Source of the DNA: a virus
IMG/VR virus record: IMGVR_UViG_3300025383_000133
Location: 1 to 20,509 of that record
DNA length: 20,509 nucleotides
Strand: one strand, 5' to 3'
In this document: positions 1,859-19,699 of the stretch, piece by piece
Numbering within the stretch: position 1 is the first letter of the stretch
Layout: every line of letters starts with the position of its first letter
Notes under the pieces: model-generated
Seen by the model: only the letters and a program-made list of their open reading frames with translations
What the model was told of the DNA's origin: nothing
Database searches by the model: none
Translations under genes and position numbers: made by a program

Positions 1859-2926
1859 TTAAAGAGCAAGTGCGCTGTAATCAAACAGTGCCTTATCCTT
1901 AACACGAGTAAGAATGAGTCGGCTACCCTTACTCTCAAAGATGAACTTGCCTTCCTGACTATTGAGGTTAATCAAGTGTTCAGGAGTGAACGAGACAGTT
2001 GCCCAATCAGCATCATCGTTGTTCGGGTCAGTGTCATATTCAATATGAACACCCTTCATAGCAAGCGGATTACCTCGCCAGATTTCAGGAGAGATTGCAT
2101 CCTTAGTCATCTCCTTGCCATGCTCAACAAGAGTAACCTCGTACCTAGCACCATCGTCATACTCAGGCTTAGCGTTGAGCATTTCAAGAGCTTCGGTCGG
2201 AGTTTCGTTGTAACGATTCATTTCTTCAACAAGCGCCTTGAGCATGTCAAAGTTGAACTCACCGAACAAGCTGGTAAGAGAACAAATCTGTTCAATGTAC
2301 TGCTTGTTGTTGAGGCGATCTTCACAGTATTCACGAATGAAGTTTACATCAAGACCCTTGAAGTCAAGCAGGTAGAAGATACGACCAGGACGATTACGCA
2401 TGTGCGAATCAACACGCCACTTGTCATTGCAAGTCAGGATGTAGAGCTTCTTAGAGCCGAACACGCCATCAAGCAGAGTGAGGATTTCTTCCTGCTTGTC
2501 ACGATCATAGACCTTCTCAAACTCATCAAAGAGAACGACACAGGGCTGATCAATGTCCTGCAACAACTTAAAGAAGCCATCCCCAGTCCAATCACGGTTG
2601 ATCACGATAGTAGGAACACCCTGCTTAGCAAGTTCAGTGCAGAGGTTCTTAGCAAGCAATGTCTTGCCACTACCCTTCTCACCGTTCAACAATACGCCAG
2701 TCTGCTGGGGACGATCCCAGAAGCTATTCATAATACGATTAGTGTGACGAAGGGCATTGCCATACAACTTAGAGGGAATCTCAAAATCGTCAATCTGCTC
2801 AAGGTAAAAGTTACCAAAAGGATCAATTGCTACAGTGTAATTACCTGCAGGAAGCTGATCGTGCAGATTCATTGCTTCCTTGCTAGAAACGCGCCAACTA
2901 GTACCATTCTTCAAAAAGTGTGCCAT
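1859..2926 (-). CDS. AAA+ family ATPase (355 aa)
   Basis: A single-domain AAA+ ATPase. Walker A is GEKGSGKT (82-89), Walker B VVLFDEFEK (130-138, with D134/E135), the sensor-1 Asn is in TCND (165-168), and candidate arginine fingers lie in the HMRNRPGRI stretch (about 176-183). Residues 1-60 form an N-terminal region of unknown type. After the ATPase module (about 60-260) comes a roughly 90-residue C-terminal domain rich in beta-type sequence, possibly a substrate or partner adaptor. The module recalls proteasomal-ATPase and moron-type phage AAA proteins, but I cannot assign a specific role. It follows the PTH2-like gene by 7 nt and shares the operon driven by P4. Ribosome-binding site GAGGA before ATG 2926; stop TAA. 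Confidence 0.9.
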   Translation of the reverse strand: MAHFLKNGTSWRVSSKEAMNLHDQLPAGNYTVAIDPFGNFYLEQIDDFEIPSKLYGNALRHTNRIMNSFWDRPQQTGVLLNGEKGSGKTLLAKNLCTELAKQGVPTIVINRDWTGDGFFKLLQDIDQPCVVLFDEFEKVYDRDKQEEILTLLDGVFGSKKLYILTCNDKWRVDSHMRNRPGRIFYLLDFKGLDVNFIREYCEDRLNNKQYIEQICSLTSLFGEFNFDMLKALVEEMNRYNETPTEALEMLNAKPEYDDGARYEVTLVEHGKEMTKDAISPEIWRGNPLAMKGVHIEYDTDPNNDDADWATVSFTPEHLINLNSQEGKFIFESKGSRLILTRVKDKALFDYSALAL

Positions 2927-2933
2927 TATGTCC

Positions 2934-3266
2934 TCAAAACTTTAGTAGGTTAAACGCAAGCAGGACGTCCCGCTTATCTTCATCAACTGGATAAACTGCC
3001 AGTGCAGTATACTCACCATCGTTTAGATCAGGTTCAAAGAACTTTTCGTACTTGAATCCAAACTTAGTGAGAATCTTTTCAACAGCCTCAAGGGCTTCTA
3101 GATTGCGAACACCAACGCAAGTGAAGTAGGTGTTGTCTGGATCAGCATCAGCATCAGCGTTCTTCCAAAGACCGTACCCAAGTTTCATAGCGACATGTGC
3201 CGTTTGTACCAACTGATACTCACGGAAGATATCTTGACGGGTGAAGAAGTAGCAATACCTTTTCAC
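2934..3266 (-). CDS. Peptidyl-tRNA hydrolase 2 (PTH2)-like protein (110 aa)
   Basis: Length and motif order match the PTH2 fold. An N-terminal strand (RYCYFFTRQD) is followed by the helix motif QTAHVAMKLG (21-30), equivalent to the QAAHAA helix of PTH2 enzymes. The mid strand is YFTCVGV, and the C-terminal signature is FFEPDLNDGEYTALAV (76-91), equivalent to the xxEPDxxxxxTALA segment. PTH2 releases peptides from peptidyl-tRNA stalled off the ribosome. The position of the PTH2 catalytic Lys is uncertain here (RQD replaces the usual R-x-D context), so it could also be a non-catalytic relative. ATG 3266 overlaps the preceding TM-protein gene (ATGA), and the gene is 7 nt upstream of the AAA+ gene. 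Confidence 0.72.
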   Translation of the reverse strand: MKRYCYFFTRQDIFREYQLVQTAHVAMKLGYGLWKNADADADPDNTYFTCVGVRNLEALEAVEKILTKFGFKYEKFFEPDLNDGEYTALAVYPVDEDKRDVLLAFNLLKF

Positions 3267-3729: not shown

Positions 3730-5106
3730 TTAAATCTCAGCGTTTGCACGAACTTCGTCAAAAGTCATGTCACGGATAAGAACACCGTTTTCATACACGA
3801 CTTCCAGAACATCAAACGCCTGTTCATATCCTTCATCATGCTGGGTAAACGTAGCAAGACCGTTGTCAGTCCATGCCAGCTTCATCTTACCCTTCTTGCT
3901 CTGCTTGCCTTGGTCAGTGATCGGGTCCTTGAACACATCAATCCATTCACCGTTAACAAGTGCAGCACTGCACTTCATAGCAAACTTCTGATCGTCACGA
4001 TTGACAATCTGGAGCAATGCACCACCCTGACCAAACACTACGTTGTCAGCACTGTAGCCAGCAAGCGTGATAGTGTAGAGAATGCTGCGAATGCTTGCAT
4101 GATTGATACCATCACCCTGCAATACACGAACATTGTTCAGGACCTTGAAACCCTTGTCGTTCTTAGTAGAACCAAAGTGCTTTTCAAGAATCTGCAAGCA
4201 CTGCTTCACGACCACAGCCGGATCGCCCGAGTCAGGACGAACAACAAGAGTAGCACCACTGTCAAGCACATCCTGCTTGAGTTCCGTGCCCCACAGTTCG
4301 CAAGCCTTGAAGATGTCATAGCTATCCGACACTGCCGAAACAATGCCACCGGGCTTGCCATTCTTCTTGACCATGTTGCGATAGCTGTCAACCTCGTGTT
4401 CACGACCCCAGCTGGTTACAGTGCTGTGTTCCATAGCCGGAACAGAGAAGCCAGCAATATCAGCATTGTAATAGCGGCGAGCAAATAGAAGAGCCTCGAC
4501 AGTATCAGTTCCCATAAAATTGACAAGGTGTGCGGCACCACCGATACCTGCCGATTCCAAACTCGACACACCACGAGCGCCAAAATCATGAAGTTTGAAA
4601 TCAATAGTAGTAGGGTCACCAGTTTCCTCCAGATATTTGAGAATCAATTTCTTGTTTTCGTAGCTGTTAGTAGCAACAGTAGTCGGATACCAAATTGCAC
4701 GAAGGAGAGCAGTTTCAAGGAAGCTGGTCAGCCAGTAGCAATTGGGATCAGTGTTCTCAATCGTAGCGAGAACATTCTTGACGGGAACGATAGTACCTTC
4801 GGGCACTGCCTTGATGCGAACAGGCAGATTGCCGCCATGTTCACGCAGAATGTATTCCCAACCTTCACGATTGAAAGGTTCACCGTGTGCAAGGATAATA
4901 GCTTCGGCTTCGTCAATCATGTCTTGCGTGATTGGAGCACAAAGATATTCCTTGATGAATGCCTGCAAGCCGAAGAACACAGTAGAACTGTGAACGCCGC
5001 CGCGACTTTCAATATAGCTGTAAATGCCAGTCGTGTTAGGAGGGTATTGCACATACATTGAGTACTTGTAAGAATCTGCATTCAGGCAAATGTTGTGTTG
5101 TGTCAT
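3730..5106 (-). CDS. nadV: Nicotinamide phosphoribosyltransferase (NAMPT/NadV family, 458 aa)
   Basis: Converts nicotinamide and PRPP to NMN, the first step of NAD+ salvage. It aligns along its length with the motifs of human NAMPT as I remember them: DSYKYSMYVQYP (11-22, with the stacking Tyr13), HDFGARGVSS (173-182, stacking Phe175), GTDTV (199-203, nicotinamide-contacting Asp201), the catalytic His227 in PAMEHSTV, VVRPDSGDP (288-296, phosphate-binding Arg290), and a C-terminal VFKDP/SKKGKMKL segment. I chose the ATG at 5106 because promoter P5 lies between it and the more distal in-frame ATG at 5214, and because AAAGGAG precedes it. Family members called Namat, which use ADPR-pyrophosphate instead of PRPP, cannot be excluded, but no ADPR-pyrophosphate synthetase is in this window. 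It works with the NMNAT-Nudix at 7695-8750. Confidence 0.94.
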   Translation of the reverse strand: MTQHNICLNADSYKYSMYVQYPPNTTGIYSYIESRGGVHSSTVFFGLQAFIKEYLCAPITQDMIDEAEAIILAHGEPFNREGWEYILREHGGNLPVRIKAVPEGTIVPVKNVLATIENTDPNCYWLTSFLETALLRAIWYPTTVATNSYENKKLILKYLEETGDPTTIDFKLHDFGARGVSSLESAGIGGAAHLVNFMGTDTVEALLFARRYYNADIAGFSVPAMEHSTVTSWGREHEVDSYRNMVKKNGKPGGIVSAVSDSYDIFKACELWGTELKQDVLDSGATLVVRPDSGDPAVVVKQCLQILEKHFGSTKNDKGFKVLNNVRVLQGDGINHASIRSILYTITLAGYSADNVVFGQGGALLQIVNRDDQKFAMKCSAALVNGEWIDVFKDPITDQGKQSKKGKMKLAWTDNGLATFTQHDEGYEQAFDVLEVVYENGVLIRDMTFDEVRANAEI

Positions 5107-5163
5107 AATAAAAACTCCTTTTATTAACAATGTGCTTCGACGTCTATCGCCTTTGCATTTGTG

Positions 5164-5192
5164 AGTATAACAAACCCGAATTGATTTGTCAA
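5164..5192 (-). promoter_or_regulatory. Sigma70-like promoter P5 for nadV
   Basis: TTGACA (5187-5192), a 17-nt spacer and TATACT (5164-5169) on the minus strand: one of the best matches in the window. The -35 box contains the stop codon (TGA, 5189-5191) of the upstream HNH endonuclease gene, so the homing gene abuts the promoter without separating it from nadV. Confidence 0.87.
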
Positions 5193-5947
5193 CTTTTATT
5201 TTTGCAATTGTCAAAATGCCATCTAGGCATAACCATCATTGCTCCTACTTTTCCACAATGCGGACAAGTAACTGGTTTTGTTTTTTCTTGCCTTAACCTT
5301 TGTTTTTGATCGTCAGTTAATGGTTTCGTGTTCTTTTTCTTCCCAGTGAATCTGAGACTTTGTGCTAGTTTCTGTTCCTCTGTCCAAGCATATGATCCAT
5401 TCTGTTTCCTAGCTTCCACCATCTTGGCAATACCTGCAAGTTCTTCCGGTGTGCTAAACTTTCGTCCTTTCCTTGAGCTAACTTTGATTCTTGGTTTAGA
5501 CATATTTCGTTTAGCTTCATCACTTAACCAAGATTTTCCGTTCTGCTTTCTACTTTCAGTCCTTGCTTTAATATGATCTTCACTTTGCTTCTTTCCTTTA
5601 CCAGCAAGCGACTTCTTCATCTTAGCAACTTCGTCGGTAGAAACTCTATGGGCATGGGCACTACGCAAATGTTCATATACTCTACTCGTAACTTTGAATC
5701 GTTTCATAGTGAGGTTAGAGCAAGCCATCTTATATACTGCGTGAACCATGCCTGAGTTAGGATACATCTTGGCTAATAATCTATGAGCAACAAAATGTTC
5801 CCGTGCAGTCAAGACCACTAAGTTTTCTGGATCATCACTTCCCCCGAAACTTCTAGGGACAATATGATGAACCTCTTTATAGCCTTCTGGAATTCCTTTA
5901 CTTCTCCTTGTTTCTATCAACAACTCGTATAACTTTGTGTAGTCCAT
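5189..5947 (-). CDS. HNH homing endonuclease, free-standing (252 aa)
   Basis: The HNH core lies at 22-60: HHIVPRSFGG (27-36), the central Asn in DPENLVVL (39-46) and HFVAH (51-55). Two modular repeats follow (ESRKQNGKSWL at about 131 and EARKQNGSYAW at about 178), of the DNA-contacting kind found in phage homing enzymes. The C-terminal zinc tail is C228-x2-C231 ... H244-x3-C248, ending NCKNKS. That tail closely resembles the end of the GIY-YIG enzyme at 19789-20418. I use ATG 5947, not the distal ATG at 5995, because a late promoter octamer (5976-5983) lies between them and GAGGT precedes 5947. The gene is inserted between nadV and the 66-aa gene, within the NAD cluster. Confidence 0.9.
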   Translation of the reverse strand: MDYTKLYELLIETRRSKGIPEGYKEVHHIVPRSFGGSDDPENLVVLTAREHFVAHRLLAKMYPNSGMVHAVYKMACSNLTMKRFKVTSRVYEHLRSAHAHRVSTDEVAKMKKSLAGKGKKQSEDHIKARTESRKQNGKSWLSDEAKRNMSKPRIKVSSRKGRKFSTPEELAGIAKMVEARKQNGSYAWTEEQKLAQSLRFTGKKKNTKPLTDDQKQRLRQEKTKPVTCPHCGKVGAMMVMPRWHFDNCKNKS

Positions 5948-7694: not shown

Positions 7695-8750
7695 TTACAA
7701 ACTGAGGAAGAAACTTACTACATGATAATGGTCATCAAACATCTGGTCTTCTCGCAATTCGCTAATAGGAATCCATTTTGCGGAAATTGCGTCATCCGAC
7801 CCCTTGACCTTAGGCAGCGTGATATCGTCAGGCAACTTGAAGTGATATGCCTTAGTGATAACACGACCTAGCGTCGAACGATATGGATCGTCAAACGTTT
7901 CATGATCACGAATGCTGCCACGCAGCACAGCCTCAGGAACCTTGATCTTCGTTTCTTCACGAAGTTCGCGGATAGCACCATCAAGTTGCTTTTCGAACTC
8001 GTTCAAGTGGCCACCAGGCAATGCCCACAGACCCTTACCCGGTTCTGCTTTACGCTTGACAAGCAGAATGTGACCACTCTGTTCAACAACTGCGTCAACA
8101 GTGGCGTGCTTCACAGGATAGGGCGAAACTTCCCACTGCTTCTTGTAGTCACGAACGAACTTAAGTTCACTCTGCAACTGGGCAAAGGCTTCGGTATCAA
8201 CAAAGTCGAACAGAAAATCACAAACCGAATTCGGCACCAGATGATTGGTCAAACCAGTTGCAAGAAACTTCTCACGAATAGCAGTAGCGTGAACATCGGC
8301 TTCAATAGCAACATTGATGGACCTGTACTGCGGGAACATCTTGAGATAGTAGCTAGTGTTATCCTTACTAGCGCCGATCAGACCGACCTTAGCATCGTTA
8401 TAGCCCGAAGCCATAAAACCATCAGGATTAATAACTTCAAGTGTAGTATCCTTAACAACATCTTGAACCTGCTTGATCCAAGCAGCATCGTTGTAAGTCT
8501 TGTCATAGAGAGGCTTGATGATGAGCCGATTCTGTTCGCCACTCATGAAATCAAACGAGTCGCGGATCATCTGCTTACGTTCATCAAACGTGAACGGATT
8601 GCGGATCGTGCGGGCCTTACCCGCCGAACCTACCAGTACCAATACATTTCGAGATTTTTCTAGCGCAATATCAATGATGCGCTTGTGTTCATTATGAAAC
8701 GGCTGAAAACGCCCAACAAACACCAATAGGTCAAACTCTTTATCTTCCAT
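7695..8750 (-). CDS. nadM: Bifunctional NMN adenylyltransferase / Nudix ADP-ribose pyrophosphatase (351 aa)
   Basis: The N-terminal domain (about 1-185) is an NMN adenylyltransferase, which makes NAD+ from NMN and ATP. It has the nucleotidyltransferase motif GRFQPFHNEH (13-22) and a second signature around HATAIRE (154-160). The C-terminal domain (about 205-351) is a Nudix hydrolase with a full box: G247-x5-E253-x7-R261-E262-x2-E265-E266. In NadM-Nudix fusions the Nudix half cleaves ADP-ribose to AMP and ribose-5-phosphate, which can feed PRPP synthesis. Such fusions are known in cyanobacteria, Francisella and phage KVP40. ATG 8750 has AAGGAG. A TATAAATA octamer at 8806-8813 is the only visible promoter close by. 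Confidence 0.94.
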   Translation of the reverse strand: MEDKEFDLLVFVGRFQPFHNEHKRIIDIALEKSRNVLVLVGSAGKARTIRNPFTFDERKQMIRDSFDFMSGEQNRLIIKPLYDKTYNDAAWIKQVQDVVKDTTLEVINPDGFMASGYNDAKVGLIGASKDNTSYYLKMFPQYRSINVAIEADVHATAIREKFLATGLTNHLVPNSVCDFLFDFVDTEAFAQLQSELKFVRDYKKQWEVSPYPVKHATVDAVVEQSGHILLVKRKAEPGKGLWALPGGHLNEFEKQLDGAIRELREETKIKVPEAVLRGSIRDHETFDDPYRSTLGRVITKAYHFKLPDDITLPKVKGSDDAISAKWIPISELREDQMFDDHYHVVSFFLSL

Positions 8751-11468: not shown

Positions 11469-11824
11469 TGAAATACCATTGCTACGATTGCGATATAAGT
11501 TAGTTGGTGTACTAACTGGTCAAATCCAGTAAGCTGCCAGAACTCATTGTGAGTAGTTGCTGTCCAACCCTTAAATCGGTTGATGTTCATCTTTGCGTAA
11601 TCAGTGAGATAGTGAACTGCAAACTCCATCAATGCGAGTGCCATAGCGACACCGGAGAGAGTGTAGAAGCAGAGAATAAAGAAGGTAGTGACAGCATGAA
11701 TACCGGAGTGAACCACACCACCCCAATGACCAAACGTTCCCTTGTTCTTCCACATGTAAGGTGGCTGATAAAAGAAGTCCCAGATAAAATGCTTAACTAG
11801 GAGTGCAGTTATCAGCCACAACAT
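11465..11824 (-). CDS. DUF3307-like integral membrane protein (119 aa)
   Basis: The pattern matches the DUF3307 family as I know it: KHFIWDFFYQP near the N-terminus, a Trp-Lys loop followed by HWGGVVHSGIHAVTT, a helix with EFAVHYLTDYAK, and a C-terminal FDQLVHQLTYI. Three to four membrane helices lie at about 1-15, 38-60, 62-80 and 100-118. The conserved His and Asp residues suggest a metal or enzymatic site in the membrane, but the family's function is unknown. The ribosome-binding site AAGGTAAC overlaps the 3' end of the peroxiredoxin gene, with which it is co-transcribed. Confidence 0.8.
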   Translation of the reverse strand: MLWLITALLVKHFIWDFFYQPPYMWKNKGTFGHWGGVVHSGIHAVTTFFILCFYTLSGVAMALALMEFAVHYLTDYAKMNINRFKGWTATTHNEFWQLTGFDQLVHQLTYIAIVAMVFQ

Positions 11825-11826
11825 AG

Positions 11827-12363
11827 TTAGTTACCTTGCAAATAAGCCAGGATAGATTCAGGTGAAGTTTCGCCATATGGATCAGTCTGGCAGTTATGCT
11901 CAATACCCGGTTCAATGAACCACTTTTCGATCACACCATTGTTGACAATGGCAGCATAACGCCATGAGCGAACGCCGAATCCTAGGTTGTCCTTCTGCAC
12001 AAGCATGTTCATCTGTGAAGTAAACAAACCAGAACCATCTGGAATGACCTTAACGTTTTCGATGCCCTGATCCTGTGCCCACTTGTTCATAACAAACGAG
12101 TCATTGACAGACATGCAATAGATGTCATCAATACCGAGAGCCTTGAACTGTTCAAAGTTATTTTCAAAGCCAGGAAGCTGATAAGTTGAGCAAGTTGGGG
12201 TGAACGCACCCGGAAGCGAAAATAAGATTACTCGCTTACCTGCGAAGTAATCATAAGAAGTAACGTCCTGCCAGCGATACGGATTCGATCCTTCAATGGA
12301 ATCGTCACGTACACGAGTCTTAAAGACTACAGCAGGAACAACAGTTGGTAGTTGGTCGATCAT
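11827..12363 (-). CDS. Peroxiredoxin, Prx5-like (178 aa)
   Basis: A thiol peroxidase of the Prx5 group that reduces peroxides. The active-site segment is SLPGAFTPTCSTYQLPG (49-65), with peroxidatic Cys58 and the supporting Pro/Thr of the PxxxTxxC motif (P51...T55). Further family features are the SVNDSFVMNKW segment (85-95) and Arg135 in SWRYA. Cys83 and Cys158 are candidates for a resolving cysteine. Length fits the family (about 160-180 aa). There is no signal peptide, so it acts in the cytoplasm. Phage genomes rarely carry it; a role in surviving oxidative stress during infection is inference. The gene starts 16 nt after the suppressor tRNA, with AGGAG before ATG 12363. Confidence 0.92.
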   Translation of the reverse strand: MIDQLPTVVPAVVFKTRVRDDSIEGSNPYRWQDVTSYDYFAGKRVILFSLPGAFTPTCSTYQLPGFENNFEQFKALGIDDIYCMSVNDSFVMNKWAQDQGIENVKVIPDGSGLFTSQMNMLVQKDNLGFGVRSWRYAAIVNNGVIEKWFIEPGIEHNCQTDPYGETSPESILAYLQGN

Positions 12364-12378
12364 AGTTTCTCCTAATAG

Positions 12379-12453
12379 TGGCGCGTCTGGCAGGATTCGA
12401 ACCCGCTATCCTGAGCTTTAGAGACCCGTGTGATGCCACTCAACCTCAGACGC
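12379..12453 (-). tRNA. tRNA with anticodon CUA (amber-decoding)
   Basis: A 75-nt cloverleaf with encoded CCA. The acceptor stem is a perfect 7 bp (12447-12453 with 12383-12389), the discriminator base is G (12382), and CCA is at 12379-12381. The T arm is GCGGG-TTCGAAT-CCTGC with a canonical loop. The anticodon loop is CTCTAAA (12417-12423), giving U33, anticodon CUA (12419-12421) and A37. The variable loop has 5 nt. Oddities are a weak D stem (one U-C mismatch), A instead of U at position 8, and a C-A mismatch at the base of the anticodon stem (27-43). G73 and U35 would suit glutaminyl-tRNA synthetase, but the charged amino acid is inference. Confidence 0.92.
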
Positions 12454-12482
12454 ACTTAATTTCTATTTGTTGTTTATATCAA

Positions 12483-12764
12483 TTAGTTTGGATATTTGCA
12501 ATCGTTTTGGGCATCTTTATTGATACCCTCGATAAACTTCTGTTCTTGAATACTAGGTTTGTTGAAGATTTTCTCTGAATGACATACAAGACATTTAGGA
12601 TTACCACAATCTAGTGCATGATGTTTTGCAAGTCTATGCGGCTGGTTCAATAGTTTAGGATTATGCCAAACAGACTGTTTAGCAATACGCAACTGCTTCT
12701 TGATTGCATTAGAGGTGCGTAATAGACGCTTAGACTTCTTATTCTTGGATTCCGGGTCGCTCAT
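12483..12764 (-). CDS. Small Cys-containing conserved phage protein (93 aa)
   Basis: The N-terminus is strongly basic (KNKKSKRLLR). The centre holds HALDCGNPKCLVCHSEK, with a C-x5-C-x2-C-H cluster (about 53-62) that could bind zinc, and the end is KFIEGINKDAQNDCKYPN. The arrangement resembles a short protein of unknown function that occurs in many tailed phages. It follows the 51-aa gene, whose 3' end overlaps its start, so translation is probably coupled. It ends 30 nt before the tRNA. Confidence 0.8.
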   Translation of the reverse strand: MSDPESKNKKSKRLLRTSNAIKKQLRIAKQSVWHNPKLLNQPHRLAKHHALDCGNPKCLVCHSEKIFNKPSIQEQKFIEGINKDAQNDCKYPN

Positions 12765-12894
12765 TATTTTTCACCGTGTTCTTAGTGGATGTTTGTGAAA
12801 GCTCTTGCTGTGTTTTAGACCACTGCTTAGTTTTACCCTGAGACAGAACAGTTTGCAGTAGTTGTCTACCCATTCCTAAATTATTTAGATTCAT
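12739..12894 (-). CDS. Small hydrophilic protein (51 aa), overlapping both neighbours
   Basis: The ATG at 12894 overlaps the TGA of the upstream 139-aa gene (ATGA). Its last nine codons overlap the start of the 93-aa gene in another frame, ending in TAA at 12739-12741. The product is Gln/Ser/Thr/Lys-rich (MNLNNLGMGRQLLQTVLSQG, then KQWSKTQQELSQTSTKN) and looks disordered. The overlap at both ends argues for a real, translationally coupled gene; no function can be given. Confidence 0.6.
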   Translation of the reverse strand: MNLNNLGMGRQLLQTVLSQGKTKQWSKTQQELSQTSTKNTVKNNERPGIQE

Positions 12895-16813: not shown

Positions 16814-19699
16814 TTAGTGTACCCAACAATCGCAGTTGCAAGCAGTGACATGATCTATCGCGTGATTGATGCTCAACGATGTAGGAAGCATTGTTCCGTT
16901 CGTGTAGTTTGGATCCAGATTAGGTGGCAGATTTGATGGATTATACTGAGATGGGGGCGCAATAATCACTACTGGGCTTGTAGGTGGCTGTACTACAGGA
17001 CCAGTAGGAACTGTAGTATTGACAACTGGGTTAGGGTCGCCATTCAATATAGGAGTGATGTCGCCGTTATTAGTTGCCGCAGTTTGTTGGAATCCAGGAC
17101 CAGTTGGATCATAATATCCTTCTGGTTGCACAACATTAGGCCATGCTGGCAAGGTATAAATGTTTCCATTTGGACTAGCGATACCATCAACAGCATCAGG
17201 TGCAGTACCGTTAGCTAATAGTGTCTTGGCTACTATAGGATTCATTGTGCTCGGGATATTGTTATCTGGATCAATGCCTAGCTGCTGTAATCTAGCTTGA
17301 TTGCGTTCTTCTCTCATCTTAGCAATCATGCTTTGGCCACCTAATGTAGCAACGTCACTAATAGCCTCGATGGTCTGTGCTGCCATATGTGGTCTAGTGT
17401 CTTGTGATAGGCTAGATAAAGCATCTAAGAATGTATAAGCAGTATTTGGATATTGGTTAGTGAAATAATCCTTAGGCACCGCAACAGGAGAATATGCAGT
17501 ATATCTTGCACGTTGTTCCCTTGCTAATTGAGTTCCTAAAATATTCCAATATTGATTGAGATACTTAACTGGATCAGCATTATTTTCAAAGATAGAAAGT
17601 ATTTCGCTGTTAGCTTGATCAATATAGTTTTGCACTACTGCATTCATAGGGCTAGACCAACCAGTTGTGCCATATGCAGTGTTAGTGCCGCCACCGTTTG
17701 AAGTTGGCGGGCATTCAATATGTGCATACCAGCCCGAATTGTTTGAGTGACTGCCGCCTGATACTAACGTAACACTAGTTAGTCTACCAAAGTTAGTGAT
17801 GTCGTTAGGATCAGTGCCTATAGTACAAGTTGCAGTAGCACCATATGGCAATGTGATTACGGGAGCAGGGGCTCCGTCTCTTCCATATCCTCCACCAGGA
17901 GTCACGATAGAAAGAGTGTCAATATAATAGTTGCTAGGTGAGCTATTAGCAAGAGTGTATGCTAGTACTGCGCCGTCCCAGGTAACTGCTAGATATAGTC
18001 CTTGATAAATGTTAGATAGTGCTGGTGTTTGAACCTGCTTGATTCGCTTCTCAATTAATTCCCAAGGGTACGGCAAACCTGTCATACAACCAAAGAAGTC
18101 GCTCATAGTATAAGAACCGGCTTGACCGCTTCCCAACGAACAGATACGTTTACTGTCATCAGTAGCAGCTTGATTAGCAGGCTTGCTAGTACCGTTAACT
18201 AATGGAAGATCAGTTGTATTTTCTATACCCTTAGCAACCTTAGCTAATACTTCAAAGTTTAGATTTTCAATGTTTTTGATCTGTCTGATTGAATATGAGA
18301 ATGCGCCAGATGCAGTAGCCCAATCACTAGGTACAATACCATCTAGATATGAACCAAAGCCCTTTGGTAGCTCAGTGAAGTTTTCTGGAGACACCGCAGT
18401 AGAATATGTAGGAGGAAGTCCCTTAGGGACAATTGTCCCTACGTAGTTTTGAATCTCAGGAGTATTCAATGATGAATTCAATGCACCATTTTGATAGATT
18501 AGATAATATGTCTTGCTGTTAGTAGGGAGACCCAATACACCATTGTATACAGGAACGGTAAGTGATGCATAGCTCAATGGGAACATCATTCTAAGATTTA
18601 ATAGATCAGCAAGAGTAGTTAGCCCCTGTGTTACACATTGCAATGGTGCTAGAATATGAGTTAGATTGTCTCCAGTGATGATCAAGAATGCACCAAAGAT
18701 ACTTTGCTCAAGTTTCTTTGACCAATTTGGAATAACACCATTCGTGATAGAAGCAATATCATCCTTAGTTAGCCCAGACGCAAGTAAGGCTAGTGCTAAG
18801 TCTTGTGTCATCGCGCCAGCTTTACCTATATTCATCAATAGATTGGATGGCATGCCAAACGTTTCAATTCGCTTTAGGTCAATAGCTTTGCCGAGATTTT
18901 CTAAGTCTGTACCGAACAATGTACTAGATAAGCTGATTCCAGCTATATCAGCACTAATCAAATCATTCATATTACTGTAGATGCCATCAGCGAATGTATC
19001 TGAATTGTTGATTACTTGTATAGTTTGGTTAGCGTCAGAGGTGAAACCATGAAATGTCATGAATGATGACAGAAACTCTTTATATTCAGGACTATCTTCT
19101 GACGCTGAATCACCGTTCCAATTGAATTCATTCCATGCTTGCAATGCGTGATTGCGAATCCATCCCCATTGCGTTATGCTAGTATTAGGGTTGACTGTAC
19201 TATCACCGGTATAAGGATACCAAGTTGCTTCTTGACCTTGGCCAGTTGCACTAGTGATTCCATATCCAGATGTAGCAGGTCCTGGTAATGCTCCGGAGAC
19301 ACCTTTTTGAATACCGTACTTTTCAGCGACACATGGAGTAGTAGAGTCTAATGTTGTTCTTGCCCAAACGCCAGCAGGATCAACTGCGATGTAAGTAGGT
19401 GGCTTAGAATTCCCTAATGCAGGAATAGTGTTAGCACCAATTGATATTAGATTGTTATAAGTTGCAACAGATAGAGTGGTTCCGCCACCAGGAACGCCTC
19501 TAGTGTAACCATCATGAATTGCCCACGTGAGCATATTAAGTGCAGTAGTGCTAACTAGTGATCCAAATGTATAATCACTGTTAGTTTTACTTGACCCCAT
19601 GTAACCAGCAGTAGTCGAATTGATTCTAAGCCCAGTGTTTTGCAACACTGAGCCTAGAACATTAACTGCGAGAGGGGTTTGTCTTCCTGAATCTGACAC
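16814..19699 (-). CDS. Large virion structural protein, probable baseplate/tail component (961 aa)
   Basis: The start is GTG at 19699 with GAAGG upstream; the stop is TAA at 16814. The opening segment (RQTPLAVNVLGSVLQNTGL at about 6-24, then TTAGYMG) recalls a large structural protein of T4-like phages, seen most often in marine ones. A beta-rich module around residues 590-670 carries PGGGYGRDGAP and VTLVSGGSHSNN, a Gly-rich pattern typical of repeated phage fibre and tail domains. The C-terminal about 100 residues are Pro/Asn/Gln-rich and end with a cysteine cluster (ACNCDCWVH). The preceding gene on this strand is PAAR, so a baseplate or tail-tip site is the best guess. The large size, lack of signal peptide and low charge agree. 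Confidence 0.75.
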   Translation of the reverse strand: MSDSGRQTPLAVNVLGSVLQNTGLRINSTTAGYMGSSKTNSDYTFGSLVSTTALNMLTWAIHDGYTRGVPGGGTTLSVATYNNLISIGANTIPALGNSKPPTYIAVDPAGVWARTTLDSTTPCVAEKYGIQKGVSGALPGPATSGYGITSATGQGQEATWYPYTGDSTVNPNTSITQWGWIRNHALQAWNEFNWNGDSASEDSPEYKEFLSSFMTFHGFTSDANQTIQVINNSDTFADGIYSNMNDLISADIAGISLSSTLFGTDLENLGKAIDLKRIETFGMPSNLLMNIGKAGAMTQDLALALLASGLTKDDIASITNGVIPNWSKKLEQSIFGAFLIITGDNLTHILAPLQCVTQGLTTLADLLNLRMMFPLSYASLTVPVYNGVLGLPTNSKTYYLIYQNGALNSSLNTPEIQNYVGTIVPKGLPPTYSTAVSPENFTELPKGFGSYLDGIVPSDWATASGAFSYSIRQIKNIENLNFEVLAKVAKGIENTTDLPLVNGTSKPANQAATDDSKRICSLGSGQAGSYTMSDFFGCMTGLPYPWELIEKRIKQVQTPALSNIYQGLYLAVTWDGAVLAYTLANSSPSNYYIDTLSIVTPGGGYGRDGAPAPVITLPYGATATCTIGTDPNDITNFGRLTSVTLVSGGSHSNNSGWYAHIECPPTSNGGGTNTAYGTTGWSSPMNAVVQNYIDQANSEILSIFENNADPVKYLNQYWNILGTQLAREQRARYTAYSPVAVPKDYFTNQYPNTAYTFLDALSSLSQDTRPHMAAQTIEAISDVATLGGQSMIAKMREERNQARLQQLGIDPDNNIPSTMNPIVAKTLLANGTAPDAVDGIASPNGNIYTLPAWPNVVQPEGYYDPTGPGFQQTAATNNGDITPILNGDPNPVVNTTVPTGPVVQPPTSPVVIIAPPSQYNPSNLPPNLDPNYTNGTMLPTSLSINHAIDHVTACNCDCWVH

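Follow-up and report, generated by a model that had tools for sequence, protein, structure and literature searches.

A conserved CUA tRNA with an open anticodon stem in a jumbo phage that uses the standard genetic code

The window, the whole stretch of 20,509 nucleotides analyzed here, is part of a T4-type jumbo phage genome and encodes on its minus strand a tRNA with the anticodon CUA. This tRNA is conserved among related phages, has an unpaired 27:43 position in its anticodon stem, and occurs in a phage in which TAG is an ordinary, rare stop codon. It is probably a functional-looking, selectively kept amber-reading tRNA that acts at UAG terminators. Phage suppressor tRNAs are usually read as the sign of a changed code; here a conserved one is found without a changed code. 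The tRNA, its parts, and its neighbors are located as follows.

12379..12453, minus strand: tRNA gene, anticodon CUA, CCA encoded (ARAGORN; Rfam RF00005, 39.8 bits; identical in the related records G001 and G002)
12419..12421, minus strand: anticodon CUA (positions 34–36) in the loop CUCUAAA (ARAGORN and sequence; invariant in 12/12 lineage members)
12412..12428, minus strand: anticodon arm, with C·A at 27:43 open, leaving a 4-bp stem, G·U at 29:41, and U·G at 31:39
12430..12444, minus strand: irregular D arm, with a U·C mismatch at 12:23 and A8 just 5' of the arm
12390..12406, minus strand: T arm, all paired, loop UUCGAAU
11827..12363, minus strand: peroxiredoxin-type gene (phrog_2281), starting 15 b after the tRNA; the tRNA-peroxiredoxin pair recurs in relatives
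12483..12764, minus strand: ORF upstream of the tRNA, its TAA end 29 b before the tRNA

An earlier note, made from the sequence alone, had described a minus-strand cloverleaf with a 7-bp acceptor stem, an encoded CCA end, and a CUA anticodon flanked by U33 and A37, and ARAGORN, Rfam, and the sequence agree with it. ARAGORN calls a single tRNA in the window (12379–12453, minus strand, anticodon cta), and its 39.8 bits against RF00005 exceed the gathering score of 29. The acceptor stem has 7 bp without mismatch and is followed by G73, and the anticodon (C34, U35, and A36) lies in a 7-base loop with U33, as in an amber suppressor. The weak points of the Rfam match are the same ones as seen by eye, and the weak D stem and replaced U8 remarked upon earlier are both evident: the D stem is paired in part, and position 8 is an A. 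Beyond these remarks, the anticodon stem is itself unusual. Its pairs from 27:43 to 31:39 are C·A, G-C, G·U, G-C, and U·G, leaving 27:43 unpaired and 28:42 to 31:39 paired. The folding energy of the tRNA (single-strand, z −0.39) is like that of shuffled sequences and unremarkable alone, so the case for the tRNA rests on comparison. ARAGORN labels it 'tRNA-Pyl,' which reflects the anticodon only. The hallmarks of tRNA-Pyl are a single base between acceptor and D stems, a 3-base variable loop, and the lack of G18G19; the window tRNA has two bases between these stems, a 5-base variable region, and GG in its D loop, and this identity was rejected.

A 35-b exact pattern led to two IMG/VR records, G001 (360,683 b) and G002 (90,124 b), the latter being 99.9% the same as part of the former. 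Among named phages, the large terminase of G001 is closest to those of PA5oct, Atu_ph07, Phosso, and GAP32 (43–52% identity). The window and G001 match in five stretches, at 80–94%. Their CUA tRNAs are identical at 75/75 positions, the 100 b upstream agree in 60/110 columns, and the peroxiredoxin region agrees in 418/549. G001 has 43 tRNAs and one tmRNA; its CUA tRNA and its main tRNA cluster are 14 kb apart. The tmRNA is permuted (L009:18963–19307) and matches RF04321 at 85.5 bits as well as the alphaproteobacterial RF01849; ARAGORN also found tmRNAs in G003, G004, G005, and G021. In the window, an AGGAG (12369–12373) precedes the peroxiredoxin-type gene. The ORF at 12483..12764 had no match in Pfam, PHROGs, or NCBIfam, and a promoter scan of 11700–12800 yielded no promoter-like site.

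Relatives of the tRNA were gathered through the relatives of the peroxiredoxin (80 loci) and through tRNA patterns. Thirty-one loci, most from fragmentary records, have a peroxiredoxin at least 80% identical (L203–L233). A CUA tRNA is located just before the peroxiredoxin gene in ten of these (L203, L211, L213, L219, L222, L223, L225, L227, L231, and L232) and elsewhere on the locus in seven (L214–L218, L228, and L229). Four more (L212, L220, L221, and L224) are on contigs with a CUA tRNA before another gene, and L230 belongs to G021, which has a CUA tRNA. In L210 (near 2900–3000, before the peroxiredoxin gene) there is, by eye, an apparent remnant that retains the acceptor and T arms and has no anticodon arm, and no CUA tRNA was seen in the remaining 8/31 loci (L204–L209, L226, and L233); the tRNA thus appears dispensable in some phages. 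ARAGORN missed the tRNAs of L203, L219, L223, L225, and L227 because of their irregular D arm, and CUA tRNAs of this sort are therefore probably undercounted. Rfam accepted those of L284, L288, and L094, the latter two sharing contigs with L203 and L225, and lineage scores are modest (36.5–39.8 bits). In L440, by eye, the gene that directly follows a lineage CUA tRNA is a GroES-like ORF.

An alignment of twelve distinct lineage sequences was scored against the cloverleaf. In the acceptor stem 96.4% of cells are paired, with two-sided changes at 5/7 pairs; G1-C72 is invariant and C2-G71 usual. The T stem is 100% paired; pairing in the D stem is 62.5%, and 12:23 fails to pair in 10/12 members. 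As a control, sliding the partners lowered the paired cells from 85.3% to 31–45%. By this comparison of sequences, paired changes preserve the acceptor and T stems. The anticodon is CUA in all twelve, but 35/75 alignment columns are invariant, so that an invariant CUA is by itself weak evidence, and scans were therefore carried out with the anticodon left free. The two scans returned 13 and 10 stretches. Twenty-two of these are tRNAs, every one with CUA (22/22), and the remaining stretch, L432, does not encode a tRNA. That relatives keep the same tRNA suggests that it probably matters. With respect to ancestry from a sense tRNA, the best non-CUA match is about 66%, with several amino acids tied, and the body of the window tRNA had no match in host genomes (GTDB contigs).

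The conserved element might instead be a relic or a processing signal, that is, a tRNA-like leader that sets the 5' end of the peroxiredoxin mRNA and whose anticodon is kept by descent only. The irregular D arm is consistent with this, as are the location of the tRNA directly before the peroxiredoxin gene, both in the window and in ten relatives' loci, and the arms retained in the L210 remnant. However, related CUA tRNAs also stand before other genes (the GroES-like ORF and an ORF similar to the phrog_2470 gene of the window) or 0.5–2 kb from the peroxiredoxin gene. Moreover, the place before this gene is occupied in L222 and in L231/L232 by different CUA tRNAs (68% and 61% identical) with a canonical U8-A9. 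We consider a relic or leader unlikely.

The phage uses the standard genetic code, with TAG as a rare, ordinary stop. With our own gene caller, which uses a dicodon score, G001 has 320 genes (stops TAA 206, TGA 101, and TAG 13), and the window has 23 genes, none ending in TAG. Reading a stop as sense cost the G001 gene models a score of 46 for TAG, 692 for TGA, and 1,504 for TAA. At a stricter cut (G001, 312 genes, 12 TAG), reading TAG as sense never raised the score in ten records. Proteins of the ten records were also aligned to 14 records and an additional 99 loci. In the resulting 12,938 alignments, the in-frame stops within well-aligned stretches were one TAG, three TAA, and no TGA. The sole TAG is in a homing-endonuclease-like gene of G018 (L364, near 5002), a tRNA-bearing record; it is crossed by five query alignments, and the one inspected has Trp at this position. 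When TAG-ended genes of four records were extended past the TAG, their orthologues mostly stopped at the same place. Code 15 phages also encode CUA suppressor tRNAs, but they have many genes with internal TAG, and none was found here; a TAG-recoded phage was accordingly rejected. Phages of that type frequently encode a release factor or a synthetase to match, and no RF-1 family protein (PF00472) was found in eight records. ORF coverage as a means of telling recoded from standard CUA loci was dropped since the TGA control rose as well.

The earlier note had seen nearly all genes clean under the standard code, which these scores and alignments bear out, and had proposed that the tRNA may decode an internal UAG in one phage gene or a few. 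Such genes do exist in TAG-recoded phages (PMC10879173, PMC13037316), and the in-frame TAG of G018 falls at a Trp codon in a tRNA-bearing record. However, with no recoding and a single TAG among the alignments, and with no gene having a conserved internal TAG, this proposal is unsupported, and no phage gene needing the tRNA was found among the viral genes examined. The authors describing Xanthomonas phage XacN1, which has two CUA tRNAs per terminal repeat and 18 amber stops, likewise reported no target (PMC5852040). A decoder of a few phage genes is in our estimation very unlikely.

TAG avoidance was considered as a mark of suppression and rejected: TAG makes up 37/575 stops in records with the tRNA and 32/814 in records without it, several of these records being fragments. 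A readthrough fusion of the terminase with the small gene upstream was also rejected. The TAG of the small gene is in frame with the terminase in G001, G021, L129, L130, and L136, but an early second stop interrupts the frame in the relatives L165 and L178, and the closest in-frame stop on the upstream side is TAA in 69/80 terminase loci. In a separate observation, the in-frame stretch that follows a TAG stop had a greater length in tRNA-bearing records (G001, G018, G019, G021, and G033, as tiled loci), with a median of 17 vs 7 codons (an uncorrected, post hoc p of 0.0002), and was 7.5 vs 7 codons in other records. These stretches are not conserved in orthologues.

The tRNA might also insure a large genome against amber mutations, for example against CAG becoming TAG through C deamination, were it to carry Gln. 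Gln would be consistent with G73 and U35, and a tRNA-bearing record does contain a natural in-frame TAG. Selection for such insurance would be indirect, however, and TAG is no commoner than TAA among in-frame stops, which makes this explanation quite improbable as well. Least probable is that it would stand in as a decoy or a spare where host nucleases attack tRNAs, a role known for other phage tRNAs, as we know of no anticodon nuclease that targets CUA and the neighborhood offers no pointer to one.

The open 27:43 position recurs in the lineage, being unpaired in 11/12 members; 31:39 is unpaired in 5/12, and the middle three pairs are always formed. Among ARAGORN-called tRNAs of the gathered loci, clustered at 85%, 27:43 is open in 18/73 CUA representatives vs 45/434 other class I representatives (Fisher p 0.0017, uncorrected for relatedness), most of the CUA set coming from one pattern that fixes T31 and the T arm. 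Both 27:43 and 31:39 are open in the CUA tRNAs of XacN1 and in Stenotrophomonas phage RAS14. In contrast, the CUA tRNAs of GAP32, CBB, and Phosso (two) have full 5-bp anticodon stems, and an open stem is therefore not required. A scan for C31 with A39 returned 34 contigs, of which six lacked an ARAGORN call there and three were assigned a different anticodon. These viral contigs (L398–L431), several jumbo-sized, have the anticodon loop CCTCTAAAAC and an open C31·A39.

Work on cellular genomes has reported that tRNA-Trp CCA can read UGA in E. coli when its anticodon stem has 4 bp (PMC13092985). Older studies cited there describe a CUA tRNA-Thr whose G27-A43 form outperforms the 5-bp form in reading UAG, and a CUA tRNA-Trp that reads UAA once its top pair is opened. 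On the basis of these results we propose, by analogy, that the open 27:43 probably raises UAG decoding by the window tRNA. The tRNAs of that report share the unpaired 27:43 with the window tRNA but are mainly tRNA-Trp CCA reading UGA, and the word 'phage' is absent from its main text.

CUA suppressors in jumbo phages with the standard code have already been published, for XacN1 and RsoM2USA, and the window lineage is a structurally distinct, conserved form of these. XacN1 (AP018399), described in 2018, is a close precedent, being likewise a jumbo myovirus with the standard code, an open 27:43, and CUA tRNAs for which no target was found. Its CUA tRNAs are 60–67% identical to the window tRNA but have a canonical U8-A9 and D arm, an open 31:39 as well, and a tandem arrangement inside the terminal repeats. 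RsoM2USA, a jumbo phage of Ralstonia (41% G+C), is reported to have 44 tRNAs, one of them a CUA suppressor as in the window phage (PMC8504454), and Atu_ph07 a UCA suppressor (PMC6102473). A jumbo phage survey ties CUA tRNAs to recoding (PMC13037316). Among the literature matches listed, no paper joined a 4-bp anticodon stem, a phage, and a suppressor tRNA, and as far as our searches go the lineage and its open stem are not in print. The lineage, its kept CUA, and the open stem make it testable whether a phage profits from reading through ordinary stops.

Under the reading we favor, an amber-reading tRNA acting at terminators, the tRNA would probably be co-transcribed with the peroxiredoxin gene, and would probably be released by host RNase P and 3' trimming and charged by a host synthetase. 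The charged tRNA would then compete with release factor 1 at UAG. Its likeliest targets would be natural UAG terminators, those of the host and the few of the phage, rather than internal codons of phage genes, and readthrough would yield C-terminally extended proteins. With respect to charging, neither a GlnRS/GluRS-type enzyme (PF00749) nor a PylRS-type enzyme (PF01409; 14/14 controls matched) was found in nine phage records. G73 and U35 would suit charging by GlnRS; the acceptor of E. coli tRNA-Gln differs from the G1-C72 and C2-G71 of the lineage. A broader version of this reading, which we regard as speculative and rather doubtful, is that CUA tRNAs with an opened stem (27:43, often 31:39) evolved repeatedly in this supergroup. 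These might outcompete release factor 1, perhaps also reading UAA through a C:A pair, and during infection lengthen host and phage proteins beyond the terminators, with the phages' own genes not being decoded.

Elsewhere in the window, a nicotinamide/nicotinate phosphoribosyltransferase gene and a bifunctional NMN adenylyltransferase/Nudix gene (3730–5214 and 7695–8750) form an NAD salvage pair. Searches of Pfam, PHROGs, NCBIfam, PDB sequences, and the phage collection gave no match for a 961-residue protein (16814–19699), of which a look-alike is seen by eye in G001, just after 209760.
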